A stretch of 34,541 nt of DNA from Anaerolineales bacterium (GTDB lineage: Bacteria; Chloroflexota; Anaerolineae; Anaerolineales; Villigracilaceae), in assembly GCA_014860745.1 (NCBI GenBank), contig JACZJC010000079.1, positions 1 through 34,541 on the forward strand, written 5' to 3'. Positions 6,048 through 32,233 of this stretch are shown in pieces. The notes beneath the pieces are model-generated. The model ran no database searches, was not told the DNA's origin, and saw only the letters and a list, made by a program, of their open reading frames with translations. Every line of letters starts with the position of its first letter. Within the stretch, counting starts at the first letter, position 1. A program made the translations under genes and the position numbers.

Positions 6048-6460
6048 ATTTTTAAATTTCCTTATTTTCACGGCTTAATCATCCTCTTCATTCTAGCGCA
6101 AAATATTTAATTAAGGAATAAGATATTATTCCCAAAAAGCGTTCCTTATATTTCCTGTCATCTTGCAGAAGAATCTTATATCGCACAACCCTTTTTCCAC
6201 ACAATACCCGACTAAGACTATGGATTAATAACAGATCGGCCAGCCCCACGATATGGAGAATCGCGGGATATATCGAAAATATTTCAATTGCATGATTACT
6301 CTTCCAGTATTAAGACCGAAACCCTCTAATTCGTTATAATGAATCAACCCCACCTCGAGCAGGATTCATCCAAAACGAAATTTAGGTCCACGCTGTTTCA
6401 TAATTGACAGATTTTATTTTATCTAATCCGAGCCATAGATCTTTACAGAATAGAGGTTGT
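6048..6460. other. Divergent intergenic region
   Basis: This stretch separates the minus-strand gene starting at 6047 from the plus-strand gene starting at 6461. It contains a perfect 7-bp inverted repeat (6115-6121 with 6126-6132, 4-nt centre) and a TATAAT at 6335-6340 that could be a -10 box with a long leader. TTGACA at 6404-6409 has no well-placed -10 partner. No gene is visible. Confidence 0.45.
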
Positions 6461-17645: not shown

Positions 17646-17885
17646 ATGGTTGTTGAAAAAGTGCGCGAAATCCTCTTAAAAACAGGTCGTTTGTCTGTAC
17701 CGGTGGAGCAATTGGCAGATGACAGTGATCTCTATATTGTGGGCTTGACCTCGCTTGCAACGGTCGGTTTGATGCTGGCCTTGGAAGAGGAGTTTGATAT
17801 CGAAATTCCCGATGCTATGCTGGGGAGAAAAACATTCGCAAGCATCGGGTCAATCGTTGAAGTGGTTCAACGATTGAATCGTTAA
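17646..17885 (+). CDS. Acyl/aminoacyl carrier protein
   Basis: The 79-residue acidic protein has the four-helix carrier-protein pattern with the attachment motif GLTSL. Ser36 is the predicted site for the 4'-phosphopantetheine arm. The usual DSL is replaced by TSL, a variation known in discrete carrier proteins. The helix II block LATVGLMLALEEEFDIEIPD and helix III (FASIGSIVEVVQRL) are standard. It starts the operon, and the amino acid:carrier ligase two genes downstream is its likely partner, so it probably carries an amino acid rather than a fatty acid. No phosphopantetheinyl transferase is in the window, so activation must come from a gene elsewhere. An AGGAG site precedes the start. Confidence 0.92.
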   Translation: MVVEKVREILLKTGRLSVPVEQLADDSDLYIVGLTSLATVGLMLALEEEFDIEIPDAMLGRKTFASIGSIVEVVQRLNR

Positions 17886-17906
17886 CAGAAAAGAAAGGGT
17901 CACTCC

Positions 17907-19097
17907 ATGGAGCTGTTAAACCAGACAGGAATCAGCCAGAAAGCTTTTGATGAGTTGCTGCAGAACGTTCATAAAATCGGCGAAGAGGTGATCCGTCCCA
18001 ATGCGACAGACGTGGATGCAAAAGCCCGCTTTCCACTGGAAGCCATAAACGCCATTAAGGCAATGAAATTGATGGGCGCCTACATTCCCACAGAACTGGG
18101 CGGGATGGGTTTGAACATCAGTCAACTGGCGTTGATTTGCGAATCACTGGGGCAATACTGCGGTTCCACCGCCATGATCTTCGCCATGCACCAAATTCAG
18201 GTGGCATGTGCAGTCAATCACGGATCATCCAATGAACATTTCCGAAACTATTTAAAGAAAGTCGCATCAGACCAACGACTGCTTGCCTCTGCCACGACAG
18301 AAATGGGCATCGGGGGAGATTTGCGCCAAAGCATATGCGCGGTTGAAGTGGTAGGTGAAAAATTCACCCTCACAAAGAATGCGCCCGTTATCTCTTACGG
18401 TTTACAAGCAGATGATTTATTCATCACATCCCGCCGAGCGCCAGAATCCTCCGCCAATGATCAGGTTCATGTGGTGGTCAGCAAGCAGGACTACGATTTA
18501 GAACCTACGATGAGTTGGGATACGATGGGATTTCGCGGTACATGCAGTGAAGGGTTTGTAGTTAAATCCAAGGGACATATTAAGCAAATTATCCCGGCGC
18601 CTTTTGCAGATATTTTGAGTCAGAGTATGCATCCAACCTCTCATATCCTTTGGGGATCACTCTGGCTGGGCATTGCAACAGATGCGGTAAACATGGCCCG
18701 TGCCTTTGTGCGCGACATGATGAAGAAGAATCCCAATGCCCCCCAGACGGCGGCTTTACGGCTGGCAGAAGTACACTCCGTTTTGCAGCTGATGCGTGAA
18801 AATGTGCATGGATGCGCCAACCATTATGAGCAATTATTGAAGGAAAATAATGTAGAGCTCCTGGATACGTTCAGTTTCTCTGTAAAAATCAATAACTTGA
18901 AGATTGCCTCTTCAAGTTTAATCATCGACATCGTCAGCCGCAGTCTTTTGATTTGCGGCATTGCAGGGTATCGCAATGATTCAAAATACAGCCTCAGTCG
19001 TCATTTGCGGGATGCCTATGGCGCTTCCCTGATGGTGAACAATGACCGCATTATGAATCACAATGCCACTTTGCTTCATATGCACCGTGGAGATTAA
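17907..19097 (+). CDS. Acyl-CoA dehydrogenase-family protein with altered catalytic residue
   Basis: The 396-residue protein has the acyl-CoA dehydrogenase fold. The N-terminal helical part includes GAYIPTELGGMGL. The middle beta domain includes SATTEMGIGGD and DTMGFRGTCSEGF, the FAD-contact block. The C-terminal helical part is also present. The C-terminal block RDAYGASLMVNND aligns without gaps to the RDAxxxxIYEG block of classical members and places Val377 where the catalytic Glu lies, so the usual base is missing. It may use another base, act on an aminoacyl thioester, or have lost oxidation activity. It lies 21 nt after the carrier-protein gene and 2 nt before the ligase gene, so its substrate is likely bound to that carrier (inference). 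Dehydrogenases acting on aminoacyl-carrier proteins, such as prolyl-PCP oxidases, are known. Confidence 0.88.
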   Translation: MELLNQTGISQKAFDELLQNVHKIGEEVIRPNATDVDAKARFPLEAINAIKAMKLMGAYIPTELGGMGLNISQLALICESLGQYCGSTAMIFAMHQIQVACAVNHGSSNEHFRNYLKKVASDQRLLASATTEMGIGGDLRQSICAVEVVGEKFTLTKNAPVISYGLQADDLFITSRRAPESSANDQVHVVVSKQDYDLEPTMSWDTMGFRGTCSEGFVVKSKGHIKQIIPAPFADILSQSMHPTSHILWGSLWLGIATDAVNMARAFVRDMMKKNPNAPQTAALRLAEVHSVLQLMRENVHGCANHYEQLLKENNVELLDTFSFSVKINNLKIASSSLIIDIVSRSLLICGIAGYRNDSKYSLSRHLRDAYGASLMVNNDRIMNHNATLLHMHRGD

Positions 19098-19099
19098 CC

Positions 19100-20032
19100 A
19101 TGTCTCACACCCATGAAAACCCAGTTGGATTGCAGGAAAAATATCAAAGGGAGCTGCTCAGCGCGGGACTTCTGATCGAAAGCAGCGTGCCGGGGGTGTA
19201 TGGACGGAGCGATGTTTTCGAAGGGGTGATCCAGCGATTCGAGGCGTATCTCACCAGGAACAGCCGTCACTTACAACCCGAGGTCATTCACTTTCCCCCA
19301 ATACTTAGCCGTGATGATTATTTAAAGACCTCCCACATCGAGACCTTTCCGCACCTGATGGGTTCTCTGCATGGCTTTCTCGGTAACGAACGCACCCATA
19401 TGGAACTGCTCAGAAAAAGGGAACACGGCGAAAACTGGGCCGCCGACTTGGAACCCATCGAATTGATGATGGCTCCTGCCGCCTGTTATCCCCTTTATCC
19501 AACTGCAAGAGATACGACACTTCCAGAAAAAGGCAGATTGATCGATCTCGTAGGCTTTGTGTTCAGACACGAACCCTCCAACGACCCTGCGCGGATGCAA
19601 TCTTTCCGCCAACGGGAGTTTGTGCAGCTCGGCACGCCTGAACAGGCTTTGAATCATCGCGATGACTGGATCGATAAAGGGATTGAATTATACAAAGGCG
19701 TCGGATTGGATGAAGTTCAGCGGGTGATCGCGAATGATCCGTTCTTTGGCCGCGGCGGACGCGCCATGGTCGTTTCGCAAATCGAACAGGCAATGAAATA
19801 TGAACTCGTTTTTCCAATCACCAGCACAGAAAAACCCACTGCAATTGCATCCAGCAACTACCATATGGACCACTTCAGCCATTCGTACAATATCAAGACA
19901 ACAAACGGCGAATTCGCACACACAGCCTGCATCGGCTTCGGCCTCGAACGTACCGCGCTGGCGATGTTCAAAAAATTCAGATTCGATGTGAAGGCATGGC
20001 CCTCTTCCGTGAAAACTGCGTTAGAGCTATGA
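19100..20032 (+). CDS. Amino acid:[carrier protein] ligase (class II aminoacyl-tRNA synthetase homologue)
   Basis: The 310-residue protein matches the family of truncated seryl-tRNA-synthetase-like enzymes first described in Bradyrhizobium and Agrobacterium. They activate glycine or alanine with ATP and load it on a carrier protein instead of tRNA. There is no tRNA-binding coiled coil at the N-terminus. The three zinc ligands known for the family are present as C129 (MMAPAACYPLYP), E173 (RQREFVQLG) and C277 (FAHTACIGFG). Class II motif 2 is FVFRHEPSNDP with R156, followed by FRQREF, and motif 3 is GFGLERTALAMF with R284. The amino acid cannot be fixed from sequence alone. It lies two nucleotides after the dehydrogenase gene and shares an ATGA overlap with the DUF1839 gene, so it is translated as part of one operon. 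Confidence 0.93.
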   Translation: MSHTHENPVGLQEKYQRELLSAGLLIESSVPGVYGRSDVFEGVIQRFEAYLTRNSRHLQPEVIHFPPILSRDDYLKTSHIETFPHLMGSLHGFLGNERTHMELLRKREHGENWAADLEPIELMMAPAACYPLYPTARDTTLPEKGRLIDLVGFVFRHEPSNDPARMQSFRQREFVQLGTPEQALNHRDDWIDKGIELYKGVGLDEVQRVIANDPFFGRGGRAMVVSQIEQAMKYELVFPITSTEKPTAIASSNYHMDHFSHSYNIKTTNGEFAHTACIGFGLERTALAMFKKFRFDVKAWPSSVKTALEL

Positions 20033-20997
20033 AAAAATCGATCCTGAACCTGGACGCTGATAAATATCAACGCCACCTGATTCACGGCCCCGACCGTATT
20101 TGGGCCGAAACCAATTGCTATTCCGATGTGTGGATCGAACTGCTTCACGCGCTAGGATTTGAACCGATTGCCTCTCTGCCATTCACCCTGGTCATTGATT
20201 TTGAAGGGGATCAATGGACGTTCTTCAAATTTCCGCTGTCGGATCTATATGAATTATACGGCCTGGATGTCCAGGAACTGGCCATTTGGAATCGTCTGGT
20301 GGAGCACATAGATGAACAAGTGGGGTTGGGCAGGCCCGTTCTCGTGGAAATGGATTCGTTTTACCTGCCCGATACGCATGGCACAGCGTATCACATGGCG
20401 CATGTCAAAAGCACCATCGCCATCGTCGAAATCGATCTTGAAATCAATCATCTTGGCTATTTTCACAACCAGGGATATTACAACCTTTCCGGCGGTGACT
20501 TCGAAAATCTACTCCGTCTGAATCAAAACGATCCGGTTTATCTACCACCTTATGTGGAATTCGTAAAAATCTGGGATCGCGCCAAAACGAACCGCGATCT
20601 CGTGAATGCATCTATCAACGTCCTGCGAAAACAACTCACGTTCCTTCCAGATAAAAATCCTTTCCACTCCTTCGCGGAGCGGCTTGCCAAAGATTTGGAT
20701 TGGCTCAGCAGCGAATCGCTGGACATGTTCCACCAATATTCCTTTGTCACTCTCCGCCAATTGGGCGCTTGTTACGAACTCTCGAAGACCTACTTGCAAT
20801 GGCTCACGCAAAACGGCGAAAGTGGTCTCGATAAAGCAATCGTATTGTTCGATGAAATTTCAACCACAGCCAAAACATCCCAGTTTCAACTCGCGAGGCT
20901 GGTCAGCAAAAAGAAACCGCTCGACTTCACACCCATCGAAAAAATGGGCCAATCCTGGCAAGCTGCCACGAAAATCCTGCTCGAAAAATACAATTAA
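20029..20997 (+). CDS. DUF1839 family protein, possible BtrH-like aminoacyl transferase
   Basis: The 322-residue protein belongs to DUF1839, often found next to amino acid:carrier ligases. I know of no proven function. Residues 28-50 (TNCYSDVWIELLHALG, with C30), 103-115 (PVLVEMDSFYLPDT, with D109) and H122/H125 (AYHMAHV) are laid out like the Cys, Asp and His of the BtrH N-terminal, papain-like fold. BtrH moves an aminoacyl chain from an acyl carrier protein to an aminoglycoside amine. By analogy this protein may transfer the carrier-bound amino acid to an acceptor; this is inference. Residues about 165-322 are mostly helical. The ATG at 20029 overlaps the ligase stop (ATGA), which indicates coupled translation. 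An upstream start at 19996 is less likely. Confidence 0.85.
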   Translation: MKKSILNLDADKYQRHLIHGPDRIWAETNCYSDVWIELLHALGFEPIASLPFTLVIDFEGDQWTFFKFPLSDLYELYGLDVQELAIWNRLVEHIDEQVGLGRPVLVEMDSFYLPDTHGTAYHMAHVKSTIAIVEIDLEINHLGYFHNQGYYNLSGGDFENLLRLNQNDPVYLPPYVEFVKIWDRAKTNRDLVNASINVLRKQLTFLPDKNPFHSFAERLAKDLDWLSSESLDMFHQYSFVTLRQLGACYELSKTYLQWLTQNGESGLDKAIVLFDEISTTAKTSQFQLARLVSKKKPLDFTPIEKMGQSWQAATKILLEKYN

Positions 20998-21003
20998 TCA
21001 TCC

Positions 21004-23493
21004 ATGATGGAATTATCCGCGAACTGGAACGTTTGTAGTACAGAAGCCGGTCAGCACGAGAACCCTGACTGGATGAAAGACGCCTCGTTGACGCCACTCC
21101 TGCCTGCTTCCGTTCCCGGAACCGTTGCCCAGCTGCTGCTGGACTCAAACCCCACCCGCGCCCTCGAATCCCTTGCCGACCTGGATGAATTCGATTGGTG
21201 GTACACAACAGATTTTGAATTTTCAGGCACGGGCTCCAAACATTCACTCGTCTTCGACGGCCTCGCCACGCTGACGGATATCTGGTTCAACGGGGAAAAG
21301 ATCCTGAGCGGAAATAACATGTATCTTCAATACAAAGTGGATGTTACCACCTTGCTGCTGAAAAAAAACAACCTGGTGATATGCTTTCGTTCCCTACGCC
21401 GCGCCTTCGATTCCTTCAAAAAAAGACCGCGCTGGAAGACAAAATTAGTTGAGCGCCAGCAATTGAGATGGATTCGCACCTCCTTGCTCGGCTACATCCC
21501 TGGGTGGACGCCTCCCGTAAAACCCATCGGACCGTGGCGGGGGGTGTGGCTCGAATCCGATTCCATTGCAACCTTGAGCGATTTGAATTTACAAACCTCC
21601 TTTCAAGACGGGAAGGGCATCCTCAAAATTAAAGCGAGTATTGACTGCCACACAAAAAATCCTTGTGAACTAATCCTTGAAATTAACGGCAAATCGCACG
21701 GTCTCTTTGCTGGTGTTGAGCCTGCGATTCATCTGGAGAAGGAAATCATAGTGCATGGTGCCGCACCATGGATGCCGCATACGCACAGCAAAGCGAATCT
21801 GTATCCGTGTAAGTTAATGCTTCGGTCCGGCGAACAGTTTCAAGTCCTGAAAGAGGCGCGGGTTGGATTCCGCGAGGTTCGATTGAAGCAAAAGGATGAT
21901 TTGTTCCAGTTGCAGATCAATGGAAAACCTATCTTCGCCCGCGGCGCAGTGTGGACAATTAACGACATCGTTACCTTGAATGGGAGCCGGGATAATTTGC
22001 GTTCCGCTTTGGTGCTTGCACACAATGCCGGCATGAACATGCTGCGCGTCGGTGGGACGATGGTGTATGAACAGGATGAGTTTTATAACCTGTGCGACGA
22101 ACTTGGAATTATGGTCTGGCAGGATTTCATGTTCGCCAACATGGATTACCCAGTCGGCGATGAAAATTTTCATGCTGGCATTTCTGCCGAAGCTGCCCAC
22201 CAAATAAAGCGGTTGCAATGCCACCCGTGTGTCGTTGTTTATTGCGGCAACAGCGAGATCGAGCAACAGGCTGCTATGCTGGGCATCCCGTCCGAAATGT
22301 GGCGCAACGAATGGTTTGACTCTGAATTGCCTGAGTTGATTCACACTCTTCATGAAAATACGATTTATGTTCCATCCACGCCAAGCGGGGGGGTCCTGCC
22401 TTTTTACACAAGCACGGGAGTCACACATTATTATGGAGTTGGCGCGTATCTGCGCGACATCAACGATGTGCGAATGTCGGATGTAAAATTCACGCCGGAA
22501 TGTCTCGGCTTTTCGAATGTCCCTGAAAATAAAACTATCTCAAATTTCATGGGAAACCGCATTCCGGTTACGAATGATCCGTTATGGAAGAGCCGTGTCC
22601 CAAAAGACAGCGGGACTGATTGGGACTTTGAAGATGTGCGCGATCATTATTTACAAGAGTTGTTCGACATAGACCCAATCCAATTGCGAAGCACAGACAT
22701 GCAGCGCTACCTCACACTCTCGCGCGTTGCCAGCGGCGAGATGATGAGCCGTGTATTTTCGGAATGGCGTTCCACGCAAAGCAAATGCAGCGGCGGGCTC
22801 GTCTGGTTTTATAAGGATTTATGGCCCGGTGCCGGCTGGGGCTTGTTGGACAACGACAACAACCCAAAGGCTGCATACTACTTTTTGAAACGGGTCTTTC
22901 AACCCCTCAGCCTGCTCCTGACCGATGAAGGATTGCAAGGCCTCAACATACACCTCATTAACGAGAGCCCTGCGCTGTTTGCAGGCCGCGTTGAATTTCA
23001 AATGCTCCACGACGGGAATGTCAACGTTGCAAAAGCCAGCCGGGAAATCACACTCCGAGCTAATGAAAAACTTTGCCTGTCAGCGGAAGATTTATTGGGC
23101 GGTTTTTACGATACCAGTTATGCCTATCGCTTTGGCCCACCCAAGCATGAAGTTGCATGTGCCTCCTTGAAAGACACGGATGGAATACTCTTGAGCCGTC
23201 AGTTTCATTTCCCTTTAAATAAGCTTTTTCCGGATGTCGAAGCGGAAGTTAGCGCATTTTCGGAAATTGCGAAAGATGGCTTCTGCCATCTTTCCATTTC
23301 CACCAACTCTTTTTTATATGCGGTTCAGATCGAATGCGAGGGTTTTCTGCCGGAAGATAATTTTTTTCACCTGATGCCAGGTGAAATCAAGCAGGTAGCC
23401 CTGCACCAACTTGCAGGCGCTTCACCGCCTTCCCAAATTCATGTCCGATCTGCAAACCTGCGGGATGTGGTCAACGTTGCGGCGCAGAAATAA
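21004..23493 (+). CDS. Cytoplasmic glycoside hydrolase family 2 protein, beta-mannosidase-like
   Basis: The 829-residue protein has the GH2 architecture: jelly-roll sugar-binding domain (about 1-185, with KPIGPWRGVWLE), an immunoglobulin-like domain, the TIM barrel (about 300-620) and a beta-rich C-terminal region. Acid/base E418 lies in CGNSEIEQ. The expected nucleophile E499 lies in FTPECLGFSNVP, the place of SEFGFQSxP in beta-mannosidases. Both are present, so activity is plausible. There is no signal peptide, so it should act inside the cell. It starts 6 nt after the DUF1839 gene and has no clear Shine-Dalgarno site, which suggests translational coupling. Its presence points to a glycan or glycoside in the pathway. 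The ATG at 21007 is an alternative start. Confidence 0.88.
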   Translation: MMELSANWNVCSTEAGQHENPDWMKDASLTPLLPASVPGTVAQLLLDSNPTRALESLADLDEFDWWYTTDFEFSGTGSKHSLVFDGLATLTDIWFNGEKILSGNNMYLQYKVDVTTLLLKKNNLVICFRSLRRAFDSFKKRPRWKTKLVERQQLRWIRTSLLGYIPGWTPPVKPIGPWRGVWLESDSIATLSDLNLQTSFQDGKGILKIKASIDCHTKNPCELILEINGKSHGLFAGVEPAIHLEKEIIVHGAAPWMPHTHSKANLYPCKLMLRSGEQFQVLKEARVGFREVRLKQKDDLFQLQINGKPIFARGAVWTINDIVTLNGSRDNLRSALVLAHNAGMNMLRVGGTMVYEQDEFYNLCDELGIMVWQDFMFANMDYPVGDENFHAGISAEAAHQIKRLQCHPCVVVYCGNSEIEQQAAMLGIPSEMWRNEWFDSELPELIHTLHENTIYVPSTPSGGVLPFYTSTGVTHYYGVGAYLRDINDVRMSDVKFTPECLGFSNVPENKTISNFMGNRIPVTNDPLWKSRVPKDSGTDWDFEDVRDHYLQELFDIDPIQLRSTDMQRYLTLSRVASGEMMSRVFSEWRSTQSKCSGGLVWFYKDLWPGAGWGLLDNDNNPKAAYYFLKRVFQPLSLLLTDEGLQGLNIHLINESPALFAGRVEFQMLHDGNVNVAKASREITLRANEKLCLSAEDLLGGFYDTSYAYRFGPPKHEVACASLKDTDGILLSRQFHFPLNKLFPDVEAEVSAFSEIAKDGFCHLSISTNSFLYAVQIECEGFLPEDNFFHLMPGEIKQVALHQLAGASPPSQIHVRSANLRDVVNVAAQK

Positions 23494-23504
23494 TTTACCA
23501 ATTT

Positions 23505-25337
23505 ATGATGACAAAAACCGACATCCTTCCCATCGAACGAATCCCCTTCTACATTGAGTCGGGGCGGGATGTTTTGCTTGCCTGGTGTCATCTTCCTGAA
23601 AAGCCGACGGATCATGCCATCATTATCTGCCCGCCTGTGGGACATGAATTCATCAACTCCTACCGCGGGCTACGCCACTTGGCGGACGGGTTCGCCCGAG
23701 CAGGCGTTACCGCATTTCGGATGGAATATCAAGGCGTGGGAGATTCCACCGGCCTAGATACCGACCCCGACCGCATTCAGAACTGGGCTTCCAGCATCGA
23801 ACGCGTGCAAAGTTTTATTCGGTGGAATTGCGGGATTAAACGCGTGAGCCTGTTTGGCCTTCGGATGGGCGCGACCCTTGCGTGCATGATCGCCGAAAAA
23901 CATGAGGTTGAGTCCCTGCTGTGCTGGGTGCCTGTCGTGGAAGGCAGGCGGTACATCCGCGAAATGCTGGCTCTGCAAAAGACGGGAGAAAATGCAAGCC
24001 AGGAAGTGGACAGCACCTCTTTGGAGGGTGGCGGATTTTTGATCACACGCGAAACGATGAACGAAGTCTCCACCCTCTCGATGCTGAAAATGAATCCTGC
24101 TCAGGCAAAGCGCCTGGTCCTCTTTCACAGTGATGATATGCCGCTGCCCAACGAATTGATTCAGCATTGGTCCTTCATACATTCAAAATTCCTTCACGAA
24201 TCCCTGTCTGGATATGCGGAAATGATGGAATTACCGCATAACAGCAAAGTCCCGTTCGGCGCGATCAATTCCATTGTTGAAACTTTCCTGCCGGCCTACA
24301 AAAACTCACAGGAAGTCGATAGGGCACTCTTCCTCAATTTGAAAAATTACCAGCAGTGCAGGTTCGATTGTTATACCTACGGTTCAACTGCCAAGGAAAG
24401 CATGGATGCGGGGGGCGGATTCCCCGTCAACGAAACGATATGCTGGTTTTCCAACGAGCCGCTGTTCGGTATTATGAGCCGCCCGATGCTAAGGGACGAG
24501 GAGGATAAACCGACAATCCTTCTTTTTAATGCGGGCGCAGTCCACCGGGTTGGTCCCAATCGTAATTACATCTACCTGACGCGACAATTACTTTCGCTAG
24601 GATTCAACGTGATGCGGATAGATTTCCTTGGGCTGGGTGATTCCGTTAACCCGGATGTTTCGCGTGAAAACAATCCCTATATACCGGAAGCACTGGATAA
24701 CATCCATGCAGCCATGTGCTACTTGAAGGAGGTATTTGACGTTGATAGATTGGTGTTGATGGGGTTGTGCTCCGGCGCGTATGCATCGTTCCAGGCGGCG
24801 TTAAACCTTGATGCTCCATCCATTCAGGAAATTGTGCCGGTGAATCCGTTGACCTTCTATTGGAGAGAGGGCATGTCCCTCGATGTGCCGAGTCTCGAAT
24901 ACCATTGGGATTGGAACCGGTATTCTGTAAATGTAAAGAAACGCGAAAAATGGACGAAACTGCTTGAAGGTAAGGTTAATCTCAAGGATGTTTTGACGAC
25001 CGTTACTTTAAGATTGATCGGGAAGATGCAGGCATCGTCCATGGTTTTCCTTAATGGATTCAAGCGGCGTCTTGGCGTGAAAATATCGGATGACCTGTCA
25101 TATGATCTTGCCCGTATTCACGCAAAAGGCATCAAAATCAGTTTTATCTTTGCCGATCTGGATCCCGGTTATAAGATCCTGATGGAATCGGCAGGGCATA
25201 GAGTCCAAAAATTATTGAAAAGCGGGGGAATCGATCTTTCCTTCATTGCAAAGGCTAACCACAATTTTTCATCCCATTTGGGGCGTTCCCGTCTGCTGGC
25301 ACAAGTGACCCGTTATTTTTCTTCCCATTTTGAATGA
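23505..25337 (+). CDS. Tandem alpha/beta-hydrolase protein, first domain without nucleophile, second with Cys
   Basis: The 610-residue protein consists of two alpha/beta-hydrolase domains. Domain 1 (about 1-270) contains CPPVGHEF, EYQGVGDS and the elbow GLRMG, where Arg120 occupies the nucleophile site, so it is probably not a normal hydrolase. Similar GLRxG elbows occur in exosortase-associated hydrolases (from memory). Domain 2 (about 310-610) has DFLGLGDS, the elbow GLCSG with Cys422 at the nucleophile place, ADLDPG with D551 or D553, and KANHNFSS with H586. A Cys nucleophile fits thioester or acyl-transfer chemistry. As the last gene of the carrier-protein operon, it may release or transfer the bound group (inference). 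The start at 23505 lies 11 nt after the glycosidase and lacks a strong ribosome site. Confidence 0.85.
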   Translation: MMTKTDILPIERIPFYIESGRDVLLAWCHLPEKPTDHAIIICPPVGHEFINSYRGLRHLADGFARAGVTAFRMEYQGVGDSTGLDTDPDRIQNWASSIERVQSFIRWNCGIKRVSLFGLRMGATLACMIAEKHEVESLLCWVPVVEGRRYIREMLALQKTGENASQEVDSTSLEGGGFLITRETMNEVSTLSMLKMNPAQAKRLVLFHSDDMPLPNELIQHWSFIHSKFLHESLSGYAEMMELPHNSKVPFGAINSIVETFLPAYKNSQEVDRALFLNLKNYQQCRFDCYTYGSTAKESMDAGGGFPVNETICWFSNEPLFGIMSRPMLRDEEDKPTILLFNAGAVHRVGPNRNYIYLTRQLLSLGFNVMRIDFLGLGDSVNPDVSRENNPYIPEALDNIHAAMCYLKEVFDVDRLVLMGLCSGAYASFQAALNLDAPSIQEIVPVNPLTFYWREGMSLDVPSLEYHWDWNRYSVNVKKREKWTKLLEGKVNLKDVLTTVTLRLIGKMQASSMVFLNGFKRRLGVKISDDLSYDLARIHAKGIKISFIFADLDPGYKILMESAGHRVQKLLKSGGIDLSFIAKANHNFSSHLGRSRLLAQVTRYFSSHFE

Positions 25338-25380: not shown

Positions 25381-26844
25381 CTAGTTTTTTCGAATCCCTG
25401 CCATTTCCAGCGCGCTCACAACCGAAGCCCGCTCGACAAACCAAACTGACACCATATACCCTGCTGCACCCGCCAGGCCAATAGCCATCAACCTGATAAA
25501 GGGGGAATATCCAATCGATAGATAATAGGCAGGAATCGCCAACAGGATCAAGCCAAGTCCGCAAATAAAGGCGGTAAGTTCTTTTGCCACCTCCATGAAG
25601 GAAAGTTTTAGAAAACGCGCCGCAACGAAATAACGGAGAATGGTGGAAATGACCGCAGCGGCGAGGTGGGCGATGGCAACGCCAACCAGACTGTATTGTG
25701 CGCCGAGCCATAACAGCAAAAGCCGAATGAAAAACATGGGGATGGAAGTTTTGATGAGAATGTCAGGCCGTCCGATGGCTTTGTAAACATCACCAACGTG
25801 GAACCCAATCGACACCACCCACGCATACAGACTTAGTACCTGCAATATTGGAATGGCGTCCAGCCATTGCTCGCCGAACGCCACACGGATGATCGGGTCC
25901 GCTGCTACGATCATGCCCAGACAGAGCGGCATGACAAGCAGCTCTACATACTTCATGGTGGAGAGAAAGCTTTTCTTTAATTCCTCCCGGTTCTCCTGCA
26001 GGGAGGAAAAAGCAGGAAAAAGAACGGCCGTCATGACCCAGAGGATGTTCAACACAAGTGTTTGAGGCAGCCTATATGCAAGAGCGTAAATTCCCAATGC
26101 CGCAGAGTTGTAGATAAGCCCGATCATAAAATAATCGAAGCTATCCTCCCATGCGGAAAGGGCATTATTCCCCATAATCGAAAGACCGTATTGGAGCATC
26201 TCCCTCGCAATTTGGGAGTCCCATGCCAGTTTTGGCCTCCACGATTCCACTATCCACAAAAGCGTGGATGCGACCGCTGTTCCGGCCAACTGACCAATGA
26301 CGAGAGACCAAACGCCAAATCCTGCCACAGCCAAAGCGATCGATACAACCGCCTTGATTGCAGTGTTTCCAAGTTCTGGGATGATCTTTTTTCTGAAGCT
26401 CATCTCCCGTTGGAGCAGGATGTTATGCGTAGCTCCAAAAGAGTTCAAAAGGAAGGTCAAACCCAGCCAGCGGATAACCGCCGTCACCTGGGGTTCGTCG
26501 AAAAAAATGGCTACATAGGGGGCGATCAAAAAAGTGACTATGGTCAGCAAGACACCGATAATAATTGTCAGGGAAAAAGCGACGTTGGCCGCCATCTCCA
26601 ATTTATCCGTCCGTTGGATTAAGGCAGCGCCAAGCCCCGTATCATTGATGATCGAAAGATAATCCATGGTGAGGGTTGCGAGAGTAATCAGCCCAAAATA
26701 TTCCGGCGCAAGCAGATGCGCAAGGATCGAGATCGCGATAAGATTTAGTGCTTTTCCAAGCCCGAAGGAAAGATAATTCCACCCCATGCTCCTTGTCGCC
26801 CTTTTTGTAACATCCTGATACCTACTGTTCGATTGTTCGGTCAT
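25381..26844 (-). CDS. Oligosaccharide flippase family protein (Wzx-like, MOP superfamily)
   Basis: The 487-residue integral membrane protein has about 12-14 hydrophobic segments and the N-terminal pattern of WzxC-type lipopolysaccharide exporters. The key blocks are GWNYLSFGLGKALNLIAISI, LLAPEYFGLITLA and LGAALIQR. Such flippases move lipid-linked oligosaccharides across the membrane for polysaccharide or glycan assembly. It is convergent with the carrier-protein operon (44 bp between stop codons), so the two are not co-transcribed. No glycosyltransferase lies beside it. The ATG at 26844 is chosen because AGGAAAG lies 5 nt upstream; a GTG two codons further upstream overlaps that site. Confidence 0.9.
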   Translation of the reverse strand: MTEQSNSRYQDVTKRATRSMGWNYLSFGLGKALNLIAISILAHLLAPEYFGLITLATLTMDYLSIINDTGLGAALIQRTDKLEMAANVAFSLTIIIGVLLTIVTFLIAPYVAIFFDEPQVTAVIRWLGLTFLLNSFGATHNILLQREMSFRKKIIPELGNTAIKAVVSIALAVAGFGVWSLVIGQLAGTAVASTLLWIVESWRPKLAWDSQIAREMLQYGLSIMGNNALSAWEDSFDYFMIGLIYNSAALGIYALAYRLPQTLVLNILWVMTAVLFPAFSSLQENREELKKSFLSTMKYVELLVMPLCLGMIVAADPIIRVAFGEQWLDAIPILQVLSLYAWVVSIGFHVGDVYKAIGRPDILIKTSIPMFFIRLLLLWLGAQYSLVGVAIAHLAAAVISTILRYFVAARFLKLSFMEVAKELTAFICGLGLILLAIPAYYLSIGYSPFIRLMAIGLAGAAGYMVSVWFVERASVVSALEMAGIRKN

Positions 26845-26950
26845 GTCCACTTTCCTGATGATTTATTTGTAAATAGAAGCTGTATTGGACCCGGAGGAGG
26901 TTGTTATTTTATCAGGGTGAACTTTATTTTGGAAAACTTTATTTAAATCA

Positions 26951-26997: not shown

Positions 26998-27852
26998 CTA
27001 ATAATTCGTTGTCCTGTCGATCAAGCCAAGTTCCCTTGCGCGAGCGTCGCATATCTTAAACACCCAAATGCTTACCGCACCAAAGAAGATGCTCAGACCC
27101 AGCAGGATGCCGAGGATTTGCATATTGCTGAAATTTGCCAACGTCGGGAAGGCTTGCGCCACATTCCCCACTAGGGACCGCCGCAGTAATTCAAGCCAAT
27201 AGGTTGTTGGCATGAAATACCCAACGGGACGAATCCATGCGGGCAGCACATCCAGCGGAAATACCGCGCCGCTGAAAATATACAACGCGCCCGCTGTCGC
27301 TTCGCCGATGAAGCCTTCGTGGCGGGCCACCGTCAATGTGATGCCAGCCAACAGCAAGCCCAGAAGCGCAAGCATCACCACGCCGAGGGTCAATGTGACG
27401 ATGAACAACCACCAATCCACTTCTGCAAATTTCAGCGGCACTTTCAGGAACAACACGCCCGCCGTGATGGTGATGAACACTGCAATCGAACCCGTGATAA
27501 AACGCGCGACGCCGCGCCCTAAAAGATAAATGGGAATATAGATCGGCGCGATGTACATGTATTTCAGAGTCTTGTAATGTTCGCGGTCATCCACCACCGC
27601 CCATGAGACGCCCGTCATCACCGCGCCAACATAGATATAAAAGGCGTTGCCCAGATAAATATATGGAAACAATGCGCTGTCGAAATTTCCCTGCGTGATG
27701 ATGCCATACATCACGACCAGAATCGCCGCGCCTGAAAGCGGTTTGACGATGGAATATACCGCGAACAGGAAGGGGTCAGTCCAGTTGGACTCGATTAACC
27801 AGCCCAGCCAGGCTGCCATGCGAAACGAACGCCATGAAGTTGATGTTTGCAT
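26998..27852 (-). CDS. ABC-2 type transporter permease (second permease of operon)
   Basis: The 284-residue protein has about six membrane segments and the ABC-2 permease layout. GAVFPLDVLPAWIRPVGYFM followed by PTTYWLELLRR is the usual signature before the last segments. It lies 94 bp after the other permease and follows the ATPase gene in the same direction, so the exporter probably has two different permeases and one ATPase. The ATG at 27852 is chosen because the upstream frame to 27894 crosses a repeat-containing spacer and lacks a ribosome site. The substrate is unknown; drug or lipid export is typical of DrrAB-type systems. Spacing from the previous gene is larger than the rest of the operon because of the inserted hairpin repeat. 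Confidence 0.88.
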   Translation of the reverse strand: MQTSTSWRSFRMAAWLGWLIESNWTDPFLFAVYSIVKPLSGAAILVVMYGIITQGNFDSALFPYIYLGNAFYIYVGAVMTGVSWAVVDDREHYKTLKYMYIAPIYIPIYLLGRGVARFITGSIAVFITITAGVLFLKVPLKFAEVDWWLFIVTLTLGVVMLALLGLLLAGITLTVARHEGFIGEATAGALYIFSGAVFPLDVLPAWIRPVGYFMPTTYWLELLRRSLVGNVAQAFPTLANFSNMQILGILLGLSIFFGAVSIWVFKICDARARELGLIDRTTNY

Positions 27853-27867
27853 AAAATCTCTTTTCTC

Positions 27868-27940
27868 ACCACGAAGGGTCACAAAGGTACACAAAGGTTT
27901 TTAAAGGTTTTCCTTTGTGACCCTTTGTCTCCTTTGTGGT
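27868..27940. repeat. Inverted repeat of CCACGAAGG/CACAAAGG words between the two permease genes
   Basis: GGGTCACAAAGG (27876-27887) is exactly complementary to 27912-27923, and the outer words ACCACGAAG and CTTTGTGGT pair with one mismatch. The words repeat with a period of 8-9 nt. It is a noncoding intergenic repeat, probably able to form a hairpin in the operon mRNA. Confidence 0.75.
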
Positions 27941-27946
27941 TAATAA

Positions 27947-28840
27947 TTACCTTCGGCTCTCCGTAATTCTTCCCTCACGTACCGCGATCTTCTCCACATA
28001 AGCCAGCAATATTTTTGCGGTCACTACAAAAACCACAGACATCACCGCCAGAATGAGAATTTCCAGCTTCACAGTCATAAAGCCAAATTGAAACCCCGAA
28101 GAGAAGATCAGCTGACGCATCGCATCCATGCCGAGTGTAAGCGGGATGATCGAAGCGCCAGCCGCCACCCAAAATGGCAGCGATTTGATCGGGAAGTAAA
28201 AACCTGAAGCGAGGAAGATCGGCTCCTGCGCCAGATTGGCCATGTGCCAGGCTTCGCGCCCGAAAAGAAGAAACGCCGATGCCATCAACATACCCATGCC
28301 ATACAAGGCGATCATTGCCAGCATGAACACTGAGAACAATTGAAGATAACTCGTCACTTCATAAGTAACACCAAAGATGAATGAGCCCATCAGGGTTACT
28401 GCAACGGCACGCATGGCAGTCGCCAGCATCCCGCCCAGTGCCATGCCAAGCAGGATCGCCATCATGGAATTCGGCGCCATGATGTAAAGAGCCAGGTTTC
28501 CCTGCTCCTTCTCCCAATACAACTGGCTGGACATGCTCCATAAAATGTTCATCCAAAATGCGGTCATTGCGCCGCCCATCACCACGAAACCGATATATTC
28601 CTCCGGCGCATTCAATGCGCGATATACGAATACATAGGCGATCACGGCCAGCATAGGCATGATCACATCGAACACCATCCACGAGACTTCACGCTGCTGC
28701 CCGATCAAACGCGGATATGCGCGGGCAATGATGGTCTTCAAGAACAAGCGCCAGCCCGTATCCTTGCGCGAGTATTTGCTGTGTACGGCGAGATTTATCT
28801 CGCCTTCTTGCGAAATAAATTTCGCGTTACTGGGTTTCAC
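27947..28840 (-). CDS. ABC-2 type transporter permease (first permease of operon)
   Basis: The 297-residue protein has about six membrane segments after a 50-residue cytoplasmic N-terminus and an ABC-2 signature near the end (LASGFYFPIKSLPFWVAAGA). The start is a GTG at 28840 that overlaps the end of the ATPase gene by 14 nt. A strong GGAGGAGGA site lies 5 nt before it inside the ATPase gene, which indicates translational coupling. An ATG frame start further upstream at 28888 would overlap the ATPase gene much more and has no such site. It likely pairs with the other permease to form the membrane channel of an exporter driven by the adjacent ATPase. Confidence 0.88.
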   Translation of the reverse strand: MKPSNAKFISQEGEINLAVHSKYSRKDTGWRLFLKTIIARAYPRLIGQQREVSWMVFDVIMPMLAVIAYVFVYRALNAPEEYIGFVVMGGAMTAFWMNILWSMSSQLYWEKEQGNLALYIMAPNSMMAILLGMALGGMLATAMRAVAVTLMGSFIFGVTYEVTSYLQLFSVFMLAMIALYGMGMLMASAFLLFGREAWHMANLAQEPIFLASGFYFPIKSLPFWVAAGASIIPLTLGMDAMRQLIFSSGFQFGFMTVKLEILILAVMSVVFVVTAKILLAYVEKIAVREGRITESRR

Positions 28841-29840
28841 TAGATTCCTCCTCCGCCATGCTGCGCCCGACCAAATCCACGAACACATCTTCGAGCGTGG
28901 GTTCGCGCTTGCTCAGGCTCATCACCTTCACATCCTTTTGCGTGAACAGATTGATGACCCGCGCCAGAGCAGATTCTTCGACCAGACCGAGACTTAGCTT
29001 CGCGCCTGTCTCTGTCTCCTCAATCGCCGCCTTCGTGACTTCGGGCTGATCCACCAGCATTTGCGGAGTCAACCCGTTGAGCGGACTCGTCTGAATCTCA
29101 AACAGCGCATCCTTCTGCAAACGATGCTTCAAGGCCGTCGGTGTATCGCAGGCAAGCACACGCCCCTTGTTGATGATGGCAACGCGGTCGCACAGTTCAT
29201 CCGCTTCGACCATGTAATGTGTGGTCAGCAAAAGCGTGCGTTCCCTATCCGCCTTCAACCACTCGATGATGAACTTGCGGACATCACGCGATGCGCCTAC
29301 GTCGAGTCCCAGGGTGGGTTCGTCGAGGAAGAGCACTTCGGGGTCGGTCAGGAATCCGCGCACGATGTTCATCTTCTGGCGCAGGCCTGTCGAAAGATCG
29401 GAGGATTTTGTGTGCATCCTGTCTTTCATGCCGACCATCGTCAACAATGCTTCAATACGTTCGTTGGCCTCCTTCGACGGCACACCATAAAACTGCGAGA
29501 ACATCCACAGGTTTTCACGCACGGTTAAAAGTCCATAGCCCGAGGATTCGCCGCCGGAGACCATGTTGATCTTCGGGCGCACCGAATCTGGTTCAGCGTG
29601 GACGTCTGCTCCTGCAACGCGCGCCCAGCCCGAGGTCGGGGAAAGAAGCGTGGTGAGGACTTTGATCAGGGTCGTTTTACCGGCGCCGTTCGGGCCGAGG
29701 AGTCCGAAAAGTTCGCCCTGTTCGACGGTCAAATTCACATCCTGCAAAGCGACAAGTTCCTTGCGTTTTTCTTTTTTGCTGCCGCGCAGTTTATAAATAC
29801 GGCCAAGGTCATGAGTTTCAATAGCAAGCGAGTGGGACAT
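28827..29840 (-). CDS. ABC transporter ATP-binding protein (DrrA-like)
   Basis: The 337-residue ATPase has Walker A GPNGAGKT at residues 49-56, the signature LSTGLRQKM, Walker B VLFLDEPTLGLD and the switch His in LLLTTHYMVEAD. A C-terminal extension of about 90 residues, ending in a block with EPTLEDVFVDLVGRSM, is typical of DrrA/NatA-type exporters. It energises the two permeases encoded downstream. All catalytic motifs are intact. The ATG at 29840 has an AAGGAG site at the usual distance; an upstream in-frame start at 29927 would add an unconserved 29-residue tail. It is the first gene of a three-gene minus-strand operon ending at a terminator near 26951. Confidence 0.93.
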   Translation of the reverse strand: MSHSLAIETHDLGRIYKLRGSKKEKRKELVALQDVNLTVEQGELFGLLGPNGAGKTTLIKVLTTLLSPTSGWARVAGADVHAEPDSVRPKINMVSGGESSGYGLLTVRENLWMFSQFYGVPSKEANERIEALLTMVGMKDRMHTKSSDLSTGLRQKMNIVRGFLTDPEVLFLDEPTLGLDVGASRDVRKFIIEWLKADRERTLLLTTHYMVEADELCDRVAIINKGRVLACDTPTALKHRLQKDALFEIQTSPLNGLTPQMLVDQPEVTKAAIEETETGAKLSLGLVEESALARVINLFTQKDVKVMSLSKREPTLEDVFVDLVGRSMAEEESSETQ

Positions 29841-29975
29841 TTTTCTCCTTAAAAAAGGCTCATAAAATACGTTGTGCAATCGTTCGAGTGGCGTAGGGCA
29901 TGCGTCAAGCGGGTTTCGAAGACCCATGATAAAGTTGCGGGTGTAAGGTGATTTCTCTTCTCCTCCTTTGTAAGA

Positions 29976-30073: not shown

Positions 30074-30086
30074 TAAAATCCCCCCA
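30074..30086 (+). promoter_or_regulatory. TAAAAT box 6 nt before the ATG (leaderless-type promoter)
   Basis: TAAAAT at 30074-30079 is followed by six C residues and then the ATG at 30086. The spacing equals that at 10324 and 14628, and no Shine-Dalgarno site is present. Confidence 0.6.
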
Positions 30087-30826
30087 TGACCAACGAAAAA
30101 GAATATTTTCCCAAACGCGCGATGAGCATTCACGCGCATCCTGACGACCAGGAATTTACTGTTGCCGGCACGCTGGCCAAATGGGCCAAAGCGGGATGCG
30201 AAATCATATCGATAGTCATTACAAGCGGAGATTCAGGTTCCAATGACCCAACAAAGGGAGCAGAATATAAAACCGAACTTGCACGCCTCCGCGAGACCGA
30301 ACAATTGGCAGCCAATCAAGTGCTTGGGGTTGCGCTGACACTTTTTTTGCGCCACCCGGATGGTGAACTGGAACCGACCATGGCCCTGCGCAAGGAACTC
30401 ACACGGATTATTCGTCAGCACAAACCGGATGTGGTGGTGATCGGTGATCCGCAGGGTGTCTTTTATGGGAACGGATACATCAACCACCCCGATCATCGTG
30501 CGGCATCGCAAGCTGCTTTGTATGCGGTCTTCCCATCCGCGGAGACGCGGCTTATTTTCACCGACCTGCTCGCAGAAGGGTTTGAACCGCACAAAGTCAA
30601 ACGGGTATATGTGCATGGCGTTGAAAAACCCGACACCTGGCTGGATGTCACTGAGACGATCGATGTGAAAATTACGGCATTGAAGCAGCATGCCAGTCAA
30701 CTGGGCGATTGGGCGCCGGATGATGAGATGCGCAAGTGGGCCGAAGAGGAAGGCAAGGAAAAGGGACTGGCTTTTGCCGAAGCGTATAAAGTGATGATTA
30801 ATGTGGAAGAGAAGCCTGAAAATTAA
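30086..30826 (+). CDS. PIG-L/LmbE family zinc deacetylase
   Basis: The 246-residue protein belongs to the PIG-L family of N-acetylglucosaminyl deacetylases (MshB, BshB and GPI-anchor enzymes). The zinc and catalytic motif AHPDDQE is at residues 17-23 with H18, D20 and D21. The second part is INHPDHRAAS at the usual distance, with the third zinc ligand His. VITSGDSGSND and RHPDGEL are also typical. All key residues are present. The natural substrate is probably an N-acetylated sugar or glycolipid, but it cannot be named. The next gene starts 3 nt downstream, so this enzyme is co-transcribed with an MBOAT acyltransferase and an SGNH protein, suggesting sequential deacetylation and acylation of one substrate (inference). 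Confidence 0.92.
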   Translation: MTNEKEYFPKRAMSIHAHPDDQEFTVAGTLAKWAKAGCEIISIVITSGDSGSNDPTKGAEYKTELARLRETEQLAANQVLGVALTLFLRHPDGELEPTMALRKELTRIIRQHKPDVVVIGDPQGVFYGNGYINHPDHRAASQAALYAVFPSAETRLIFTDLLAEGFEPHKVKRVYVHGVEKPDTWLDVTETIDVKITALKQHASQLGDWAPDDEMRKWAEEEGKEKGLAFAEAYKVMINVEEKPEN

Positions 30827-30829
30827 TCG

Positions 30830-32233
30830 ATGCAATTCACCAGCTACGCTTTTTTGCTTTTCTTTCTGACCGTTCTGGTTTTGTATTGGGCAGCCGGCGG
30901 ACGCCGCTGGCAAAATTTGATTTTGCTGGCGGCCAGTTTTATTTTTTACGGCTGGCTGGCTCCCTGGCACTCCGCGGTATTATTTGCCTCCATCGCCGTG
31001 GATTATTTCCTGGCATTGGCCATGGTCCGCTGGAAGCCAAGAGCTGTACTGTTCATGTGGCTGGGCCTGTCGTTGAATATTGGCCTGCTGGCCTTTGTAA
31101 AATATTATTTCACATTCGATGAAATCCTTGCGGCCTGGGCGGGCGGTTTTGGGATTTCGAGCGATCATTTTCTTTCGTTCATCATTTTGCCGCTGGGGGT
31201 CTCCTTTTATACGCTGAAAAAGATCAGCTACCTGATCGAAACAGCCAGAGGCACATTGCAGCCTGCGCGTGATTTTATCGCCTATGCGGCTTATATTTCC
31301 TTTTTTCCGCAGGTCTTCTCCGGACCAATCGATCGTCCTCAAAAACTTCTTTCCCAACTCGAAACCCCGCGCGTTTGGGCATCTTCTCATTTTTACAATG
31401 CCTGGCAATTGCTGCTGATGGGGTTGTTCAAGAAGATCGTCATCGCAAATACAGTGAAGGTTTTCGTGGATCAGATTTTTTTGATGAAGGAGCCGTCGAA
31501 GGTTTTCCTGATCGTAGGCGGATTGGGATTCACGCTTCAAATCCTCGCCGATTTTTCCTCCTACACCGATCTCTCGCGCGGACTCGCTTTTCTGCTGGGG
31601 CTGCAAACCACCGAAAATTTCAACAAGCCTTATCTTGCGCTCACCCCGGGCGAATTTTGGAACCGTTGGCACATTTCATTTTCCTCCTGGCTGCGCGACA
31701 CCATTTTCTTTCCCTTGCGCCGTACTCTGTTGAAGATGCAACGCCTTCCCGGTTTTCTGCCGGAGATCATTCCGCCGCTCGTTACGATGTTCATCAGCGG
31801 GTTATGGCATGGAACCGGCCTGACCTTTATTACCTGGGGATTATATTATGGGGTTTTGATCGTGATTTACCAATGGATCGGGATTCGGGGCAATTGGAAG
31901 CCTGCAAACGGGTTTGGGCGTTTTCTTGCCTGGTTGATGATGTTTCTGCTAATCGTTTTTGGCTGGATCATTTTCCGCGCGCCGTCCATGCCCTGGCTCT
32001 GGAACGCGCTCGTGTACAGTCCGCTTTACCGCAGCGTGGATGAATTGACAGCCTCGCTCGTGCTGGCCATCATGATCGCCTTTTACGCATCCCTGCTTCT
32101 TCTAAAATATATGCTCGAACTCGCCTGGCCCAGCCGAGAAAATATCCATGCCTTCTACTATGCCGCCGCAACTTTGTTGACACTGGTCTTCATGAACTCA
32201 TCTTCCCCCGATTTTATTTACTTTCAATTCTAA
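30830..32233 (+). CDS. MBOAT family O-acyltransferase (AlgI/DltB-like)
   Basis: The 467-residue integral membrane protein has about 11 hydrophobic segments. The MBOAT signature is visible as SGPIDRPQKL, WNRWHISFSSWLRD and the catalytic His block SGLWHGTGLTFITWG. AlgI and DltB-type enzymes move an acyl group across the membrane for O-acylation of a polysaccharide. The PQVFSGPIDRP block replaces the PRLIAGPI type seen in many AlgI proteins, which is within family variation. It shares a one-base TAATG overlap with the SGNH gene, the usual AlgI-AlgJ or DltB-DltD pairing. The polysaccharide substrate is unknown; no alginate or teichoic acid genes are near. Confidence 0.93.
   Translation: MQFTSYAFLLFFLTVLVLYWAAGGRRWQNLILLAASFIFYGWLAPWHSAVLFASIAVDYFLALAMVRWKPRAVLFMWLGLSLNIGLLAFVKYYFTFDEILAAWAGGFGISSDHFLSFIILPLGVSFYTLKKISYLIETARGTLQPARDFIAYAAYISFFPQVFSGPIDRPQKLLSQLETPRVWASSHFYNAWQLLLMGLFKKIVIANTVKVFVDQIFLMKEPSKVFLIVGGLGFTLQILADFSSYTDLSRGLAFLLGLQTTENFNKPYLALTPGEFWNRWHISFSSWLRDTIFFPLRRTLLKMQRLPGFLPEIIPPLVTMFISGLWHGTGLTFITWGLYYGVLIVIYQWIGIRGNWKPANGFGRFLAWLMMFLLIVFGWIIFRAPSMPWLWNALVYSPLYRSVDELTASLVLAIMIAFYASLLLLKYMLELAWPSRENIHAFYYAAATLLTLVFMNSSSPDFIYFQF

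Follow-up and report, generated by a model that had tools for sequence, protein, structure and literature searches.

A conserved six-gene operon with an amino acid:[carrier protein] ligase and a DUF1839 protein, and its possible role in forming aminoacyl amides on surface glycans

Contig JACZJC010000079.1 of an Anaerolineales bacterium (assembly GCA_014860745.1; the whole stretch of 34,541 nucleotides is hereafter called the window) carries a six-gene operon built around a carrier protein and an amino acid:[carrier protein] ligase. Our analysis shows that this operon is a genuine, tightly conserved gene set, and we propose with moderate confidence that it forms an aminoacyl-carrier pathway that attaches an aminoacyl group, as an amide, to an amine-bearing sugar or similar amine that is part of, or feeds, an exopolysaccharide or other surface glycan. 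The operon belongs to a kind that is already predicted and unsolved, since a note in proof by Aravind, de Souza and Iyer listed in 2010 a ligase, an acyl carrier protein (ACP), a redox enzyme, an Atu2574-type open reading frame (ORF), a glycosidase, and glycan genes, and predicted that the aminoacyl group, altered by the redox enzyme, ends up in an amide on a sugar of the cell surface (PMC2922099; statements taken from papers cited by PMC number refer to excerpts of their texts). Those genes and that reaction are the same as ours, with Atu2574 taken here as DUF1839; the redox enzyme was called a Rossmann-fold protein, and the passage in question gives Atu2574 no fold. The pathway set out in the original prediction, which was made from the letters of the window, is therefore not novel. 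What is new relative to 2010 are the wide counts, the sixth gene (a tandem hydrolase), the CcbD-like fold of DUF1839, the missing catalytic bases of the flavoprotein, and the link to the Bep locus. A literature search that left most subscription papers outside its reach found no report of a pathway product.

The operon and its conserved gene order

The operon occupies positions 17646-25337 of the plus strand, with the following genes:

17646-17885, plus strand: carrier protein, 79 residues (NF005480, PF00550; Ser36 codon checked at 17751-17753)
17907-19097, plus strand: flavoprotein with the acyl-CoA dehydrogenase (ACAD) fold, 396 residues (PF02771; known catalytic Glu replaced, Val377 and Ser245)
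19100-20032, plus strand: amino acid:[carrier protein] ligase, SerRS-derived, 310 residues (NF005479; presumed zinc ligands Cys129, Glu173, and Cys277)
20029-20997, plus strand: DUF1839 protein, 322 residues, papain-like presumed aminoacyl transferase (PF08893; Cys30 at 20116-20118, Thr129 at 20413-20415, His146 at 20464-20466)
21004-23493, plus strand: GH2 glycosidase of the beta-mannosidase type, 829 residues (PF22666; acid/base Glu418 and nucleophile Glu499 by motif)
23505-25337, plus strand: tandem alpha/beta hydrolase, 610 residues (TIGR03101 in the first half and TIGR03100 in the second, both under cut-off)

All six ORFs named in the original prediction are present, and its intergenic gaps of 21, 2, -4, 6, and 11 nt are exact when DUF1839 starts at 20029 (the longest frame of that gene begins at 19996). 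Scanning for promoters and terminators revealed no clear excess above chance expectation (8 vs 8.9, standard deviation 3.4; 13 vs 9.4, standard deviation 3.1).

The set is not a product of chance, since the same gene order recurs in the window's genus, in named loci, and in the order of Rhizobium tropici. Within the genus, the ligase was found in 4 of 37 genomes, and all four keep the six-gene order; in locus L012, GH2 and the hydrolase are interrupted by frame breaks, possibly assembly errors. Named genomes hold at least 584 relatives, and the taxa named among them include Planctomycetes, Acidobacteria, alpha-, beta-, and gammaproteobacteria, myxobacteria, and Chloroflexota. From these the best 80 were taken, which biases the locus set to close relatives, and gene lists were inspected for ~25 of the 80. 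Carrier, flavoprotein, ligase, DUF1839, and GH2 genes follow one another in order on one strand in 68 of the 80 loci, and 51 of those 68 have the tandem hydrolase within the fetched stretch. A contig end truncates six further loci (L033, L041, L055, L075, L085, and L110), two from Ktedonobacteria (L066 and L089) have the carrier turned or undetected, and four have a ligase without the set (L056, L058, L076, and L077, the last cut upstream). Genes in these loci come from a simple codon-trained caller, their edges outside the cassette are approximate, and labels of metagenome-assembled genomes (MAGs) may be wrong.

Two side observations concern these loci. The cassettes of L043 and L059, labelled as Klebsiella pneumoniae MAG, are like those of other proteobacteria, and the labels look wrong. 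A Thiomonas MAG (L058:9628-12762) carries carrier, ligase, and hydrolase genes without flavoprotein, DUF1839, or GH2, as a reduced or decaying set would.

Among 249 genomes of the order of R. tropici (L094), 48 have a ligase over the cut-off and 36 have DUF1839. The ligase lies no more than 460 bases from DUF1839 in all 36 genomes (hypergeometric p of co-occurrence 2e-33), and the cassette gene order was the same in 18 of 18 loci inspected. The co-occurrence across genomes that the original prediction had proposed to check was thus borne out, both here and in the named loci. Another 12 genomes of the order have the ligase without DUF1839; in the eight inspected, the flavoprotein gene adjoins the ligase gene every time, and neither DUF1839 nor GH2 was found in the fetched stretch. 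The ligases of these eight loci share 61-94% identity with a fragment of Bll0957, so this structurally studied ligase belongs to a sister system.

Finding the complete set in a member of Chloroflexota had been singled out as special, and this did not hold: the set is patchy there and frequent elsewhere, as the ligase counts of the Rhizobium order illustrate. Among 301 sampled genomes of the phylum, three have a ligase over the cut-off, the same three have DUF1839, and a fourth ligase gene lies cut at a contig end (350 against a cut-off of 357) with flavoprotein and carrier genes adjoining. When the ligase tree is rooted on three Bll0957-type sequences, the window's group is nested among genes of gammaproteobacteria, Acidobacteria, and Planctomycetes and stands away from Ktedonobacteria and L028, with some low inner supports. 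This nesting among other phyla suggests that the cassette reached the window's genus by transfer.

The ligase and carrier protein

The carrier protein scores 105.5 bits against NF005480 (cut-off 72), and its phosphopantetheine-bearing Ser36 is kept in 77 of 77 alignment rows (gaps are excluded from these row counts and from those for the ligase Cys/Glu/Cys and GH2 Glu positions below). The ligase reaches 398.3 bits against NF005479 (cut-off 357). Its closest solved structures are those of an amino acid:[ACP] ligase, with profile E-values of 1.8e-98 for 4h2w and 1.6e-97 for 3mey, the latter of Bll0957, which belongs to the same ligase family and whose gene adjoins an ACAD-fold gene, bll0958 acd (PMC10888616). 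Cys129, Glu173, and Cys277 are kept in 81 of 81 rows, with the same motifs in the 4h2w alignment. We take these three positions to be zinc ligands. Relatives of the enzyme, in a ligase study of 2010, reportedly load Gly or Ala onto carrier proteins.

More distant ligases also occur in other gene sets. In L160 (5915-9000) and L161 (4604-8728), a ligase of ~400 residues under the NF005479 cut-off lies between MBOAT and carrier genes, preceded in L161 by a 361-residue gene without Pfam match that is SGNH-like by eye; these sets are Dlt-like, with a ligase of the aminoacyl-tRNA synthetase (aaRS) type standing in for DltA. In the window's order, a further distant ligase occurs in L013 (9014-13086), L014, L015, and L016 alongside carrier, GNAT-like, and AAC(3)-like genes, within glycan clusters that include NeuB-like and sulfotransferase-like genes (by eye; the L013 carrier was checked). 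A similar distant ligase is present in L029, from the window's family.

DUF1839 resembles carrier-dependent condensing enzymes

The DUF1839 protein matches PF08893 at 386.9 bits (gathering cut-off 22.5; E-value 9e-116), and its AlphaFold model has a mean predicted local distance difference test (pLDDT) score of 94.1 and a predicted template modeling (pTM) score of 0.92. Searching with this model, Foldseek returned 16 PDB matches at E-values up to 0.001, all of them AziU3/U2, CtaG, or CcbD, and the next match stood at 0.025. Structural alignment with VIA gave a Z of 19.9 to CcbD (7yn1; root mean square deviation 3.6, 290 residues aligned), 18.1 to AziU3, and 17.0 to CtaG, the next other fold reaching 7.8. 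The model therefore points to a whole-length fold shared with carrier-dependent condensing enzymes. AziU3/U2, in which AziU3 is complexed with AziU2, and CtaG share this fold, while their products differ. The lone profile match for DUF1839 among PDB sequences, a coiled-coil protein at an E-value of 0.9, was rejected.

In an alignment of 49 DUF1839 proteins selected from the loci (A3), Cys30 and His146 are kept in 49 of 49 rows and Thr129 in 48, with Ser in the other; Asp157, a possible acid, is kept in 48 of 49. An earlier study assigned DUF1839 to the papain-like superfamily, described its triad as C(T/S)H, with His and Thr/Ser swapped, and guessed at a glycan role at the cell wall (PMC10318531); the residues meant there were assigned by us from conservation. 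On spacing only, Thr129-His146 (17) fits His128-Asp144 of CtaG (16), and Cys30-His146 (116) equally fits Cys11-His128 (117). The swap thus rests on PMC10318531, as spacing alone also allows an ordinary His146 with Asp157. CcbD and its counterpart LmbD use a carrier-bound amino acid as donor and have, like DUF1839, a kept Cys: CcbD passes carrier-tethered proline to its own Cys and then to the amino group of a thiooctose, forming an amide by a ping-pong mechanism (PMC12945683). As far as fold and nucleophile go, DUF1839 appears CcbD-like.

The flavoprotein lacks the known dehydrogenase bases

The N-terminal domain of the flavoprotein matches PF02771 (E-value 3e-19), and the model (pLDDT 95.0) has the ACAD fold, with a Z of 44.4 to 8sgs. 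To locate the base columns, we aligned the cassette proteins with ACADs of the same genome. The column of the medium-chain type (MCAD) holds Ile in 46 and Val in 29 of 75 cassette rows, one further row being a gap, and that of the isovaleryl type (IVD) holds Ser in 46, Ala in 20, and Thr in 10 of 76 rows, with no Glu in either. Given that Glu is missing at both positions, ordinary desaturation by this protein seems unlikely. In addition, glycine has no beta carbon to desaturate. The "dehydrogenase-like" label of the original prediction consequently needs revision, whereas the ligase and carrier identities and the unassigned DUF1839 gained support from family cut-offs, kept residues, and a condensing-enzyme fold.

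Three Bll0957-type flavoproteins likewise lack both base Glu residues. Residues such as His246, Trp249, Asn379, and Arg381 are common to the cassette and Bll0957-type flavoproteins and, judging from this conservation, appear to mark an active site distinct to these two groups; 43 flavoproteins selected from the loci were aligned (A4). The model also resembles DszC (Z 41.1) and TdsC (Z 40.9), and Foldseek and VIA do not separate a monooxygenase from a dehydrogenase. Monooxygenation, the guess made earlier for the redox enzyme (PMC2922099), would fit these data.

The GH2 glycosidase and the tandem hydrolase

The fifth protein matches PF22666 (E-value 4e-26), its nearest solved relatives are beta-mannosidases (5n6u, E-value 1.1e-67), and no signal sequence was seen by eye. 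It is probably active, since both catalytic residues are kept (Glu418 in 68 of 69 rows and Glu499 in 69 of 69).

The tandem hydrolase resembles exosortase-A hydrolase 2 in its first half and hydrolase 1 in its second; it scores 121 against TIGR03100 and 72 against TIGR03101, under their respective cut-offs of 168 and 203. The first nucleophile place is occupied by Arg120 (Arg or Gly in 51 of 52 non-gap rows) and that of the second half by Cys422 (Cys in 52 of 53). With Arg or Gly at the first place and Cys at the second, thioesterase or acyl transferase activity would be no less plausible for this protein than esterase activity. The exosortase-A associated set comprises a carrier protein and two hydrolase parts, and the TIGR03100/TIGR03101 hydrolases share the exopolysaccharide setting with the operon, in which the two hydrolases are instead fused and the ligase is different.

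Two cassettes have related neighbors. The 5' side of the cassette in L035 (1389-6331) holds an AMP-binding ligase (PF00501), a carrier, an ACAD-like gene, and two hydrolases, which recalls the exosortase-A carrier set. On the 3' side of the cassette in L036 (16215-20756), formyltransferase-like, second tandem hydrolase, acyltransferase-3-like, and SGNH-like genes were recognized by eye.

The cassette is found in polysaccharide loci

We compared the flanks of 18 Rhizobium-order cassettes, drawn from the 36 DUF1839 genomes, with control stretches of the same 18 genomes. The 123 flanking genes include 11 group-1 glycosyltransferases, five Polysacc_synt, three Bac_transf, three Wzy_C, and four GH5 genes, whereas each of these families occurs at most once among 123 control genes, a bound that follows from their absence from the 25 commonest families listed of 185. 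The difference for group-1 glycosyltransferases (11 vs 1) gives a Fisher p of 0.005. Three case stretches are shortened by contig ends, and three of the 126 listed control genes were omitted from the scan so that their number, 123, equals that of the case genes.

The Rhizobium-type loci also bear on whether the set could modify a protein or lipid, for example an aminolipid or elongation factor P (EF-P), the glycan genes then being no more than neighbors. Genes for EF-P, an EpmA-like class II synthetase-like protein, and an EpmB-like radical S-adenosylmethionine protein lie upstream of the cassette there (families checked for L078). This neighborhood was seen only in closely related Rhizobium-type loci (14 loci for the EpmA-like cluster) and not in the other loci inspected, and we regard such a role as very improbable.

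In Burkholderia cenocepacia (L099 and L113, one contig of 861,896 bases), relatives of all six genes lie within the Bep biofilm polysaccharide locus. The genes run in the order two CRP-type regulators, carrier, flavoprotein, ligase, DUF1839, GH2, and a sigma-54 regulator, then a 219-residue protein without Pfam match, ManC, a beta-helix protein, and two glycosyltransferases, and finally a flippase, a glycosyltransferase, the tandem hydrolase, and an acyltransferase (ten gene families were checked; the second of the paired glycosyltransferases was recognized by eye). This order matches Bcam1349 (berA) to Bcam1333 gene by gene (PMC3584217, Table 2; PMC9684580, table), so by counting the cassette corresponds to BCAM1343-1347, between berB and berA. 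The hydrolase corresponds to Bcam1334 (25% identity, E-value 5e-33), which is annotated with TIGR03100 (PMC3584217). The Bep locus is under cyclic di-GMP (c-di-GMP) control, and the published cluster, Bcam1330-1341, ends at Bcam1341.

Flanking genes of the window and the case for a small metabolite

Beyond the operon, the window holds associated genes that we do not count as part of its core:

25381-26850, minus strand: Wzx-type polysaccharide flippase, convergent with the operon (PF13440, E-value 6.6e-78)
26998-29927: ABC transporter genes, beyond the flippase gene

A convergent PF13440 flippase gene occupies the same place in two Acidobacteriota loci, L037 and L047. Farther out, positions 30086-33252 carry a PIG-L deacetylase-like gene, an MBOAT (DltB-like) gene, and a gene for a 339-residue protein without Pfam match, and positions 6404-10249 encode a 1281-residue protein with PD40 beta-propeller repeats. 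The MBOAT gene (149 bits against a cut-off of 375) was rejected as a core operon member, since no such gene was detected in the vicinity of the L011 and L012 cassettes. The L010 cassette has a similar MBOAT gene close by.

A DrrAB-like ABC exporter adjoins the operon both in the window and in L010, which would be expected if the product were instead a small secreted metabolite, a lincosamide-like aminoacyl amino sugar whose glycosylated precursor GH2 unmasks or recycles and which the exporter releases. AziU3 and CtaG act in antibiotic or metabolite pathways, and all three closest folds, CcbD included, are of this kind; the planctomycete cassettes L032 and L034 stand amid genes that look unrelated. 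Against such a product, the Rhizobium-order flanks are enriched in polysaccharide genes, the set sits inside the Bep locus, and in a third planctomycete locus, L045, a glycosyltransferase-like gene (by eye) adjoins the cassette. We consider a secreted metabolite unlikely.

Proposed pathway

We envisage the aminoacyl amide pathway in four steps. The ligase would adenylate a small amino acid, probably Gly or Ala, and load it onto the Ser36-phosphopantetheine of the carrier; the family assignments of both proteins are computed. In what is the weakest step, the flavoprotein may then alter the carrier-bound amino acid, with oxidation at nitrogen or C-alpha, or oxygenation, likelier than desaturation because both known dehydrogenase bases are missing. 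The aminoacyl group would pass to Cys30 of DUF1839 and on to an amine, as in CcbD, a reaction suggested by the computed fold and the kept Cys. Finally, a cytosolic GH2 could trim a beta-linked sugar off the acceptor or product, and the Cys-type hydrolase could edit misloaded carrier or perform a second acyl transfer. The product would leave with the glycan via a flippase or transporter.

Several observations weigh against this proposal. AziU3, a fold relative of DUF1839, is reported to catalyze ring closure and not amide transfer. A base-less flavoprotein is not unique to the cassette, since among seven ACAD-family proteins of the window's own genome, five have Glu at one or the other base column and two at neither. 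A profile of the 49 DUF1839 proteins retrieved no CcbD, AziU3, or CtaG from the PDB sequences at E-values up to 10, and for this lack of sequence similarity we do not file DUF1839 in the CcbD family; its triad may also differ in arrangement from that of CcbD (Cys-Thr/Ser-His vs Cys-His-Glu; PMC10318531). The glycan enrichment test covers one bacterial order, and no polysaccharide gene is apparent in the flanks of L032 and L034. The Bep repeat, Gal-Glc-Gal-Man, determined on polymer extracted with 0.3 M NaOH, is without amino sugar (PMC7084887), which makes an amide on this repeat unlikely; in B. cenocepacia, either the acceptor is another molecule or an ester link was lost in base. A transposon screen for Bep picked out six genes within Bcam1330-1341, and the excerpted text of that paper leaves Bcam1342, 1343, 1344, 1346, 1347, and 1348 unmentioned. 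Our literature search, with most subscription papers outside its reach, found no mention of BCAM1343-1348.

The Bep chemistry raises the question of an ester, in which DUF1839 or a partner acyltransferase places the amino acid on a hydroxyl of a neutral or lipid-linked glycan, in the manner of Dlt. The Bep sugars are all neutral, and the polymer was extracted with 0.3 M NaOH (PMC7084887). Alkali of this kind would strip esters and with them such a decoration. The distant ligases of L160 and L161 adjoin MBOAT genes, and the window has an MBOAT gene 5.5 kb from the operon. The Dlt system likewise presents a carrier-bound amino acid for the cell surface; it relies on AMP-binding DltA, unlike the aaRS-type ligase here, and the operon has no AMP-binding match, DltB, or DltD. 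CcbD, the best fold match, forms an amide (PMC12945683), and, as noted, MBOAT is not a constant neighbor of the cassette. An ester product strikes us as improbable.

Returning to the amide, a bolder version of the proposal is possible though doubtful: that DUF1839 is the founding member of a second class of aminoacyl:sugar amide synthases dependent on a carrier, with the CcbD fold and a triad rearranged as described in PMC10318531; that together with the base-less flavoprotein it yields a rare modified amino acid; and that this decorates a biofilm matrix glycan under c-di-GMP control, by a cassette that has spread to at least five phyla.

Structures of amino acid:[carrier protein] ligases have been solved for years, and we found no established end use for these enzymes. 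The CcbD-like fold of DUF1839 points to a concrete reaction, and the Bep locus offers a genetically tractable setting in which to study it. If the proposal is true, amino acid decoration of surface sugars by this route would be a common trait of soil, plant-associated, and biofilm bacteria, perhaps overlooked because polymers can be base-extracted or analyzed for their sugars alone.

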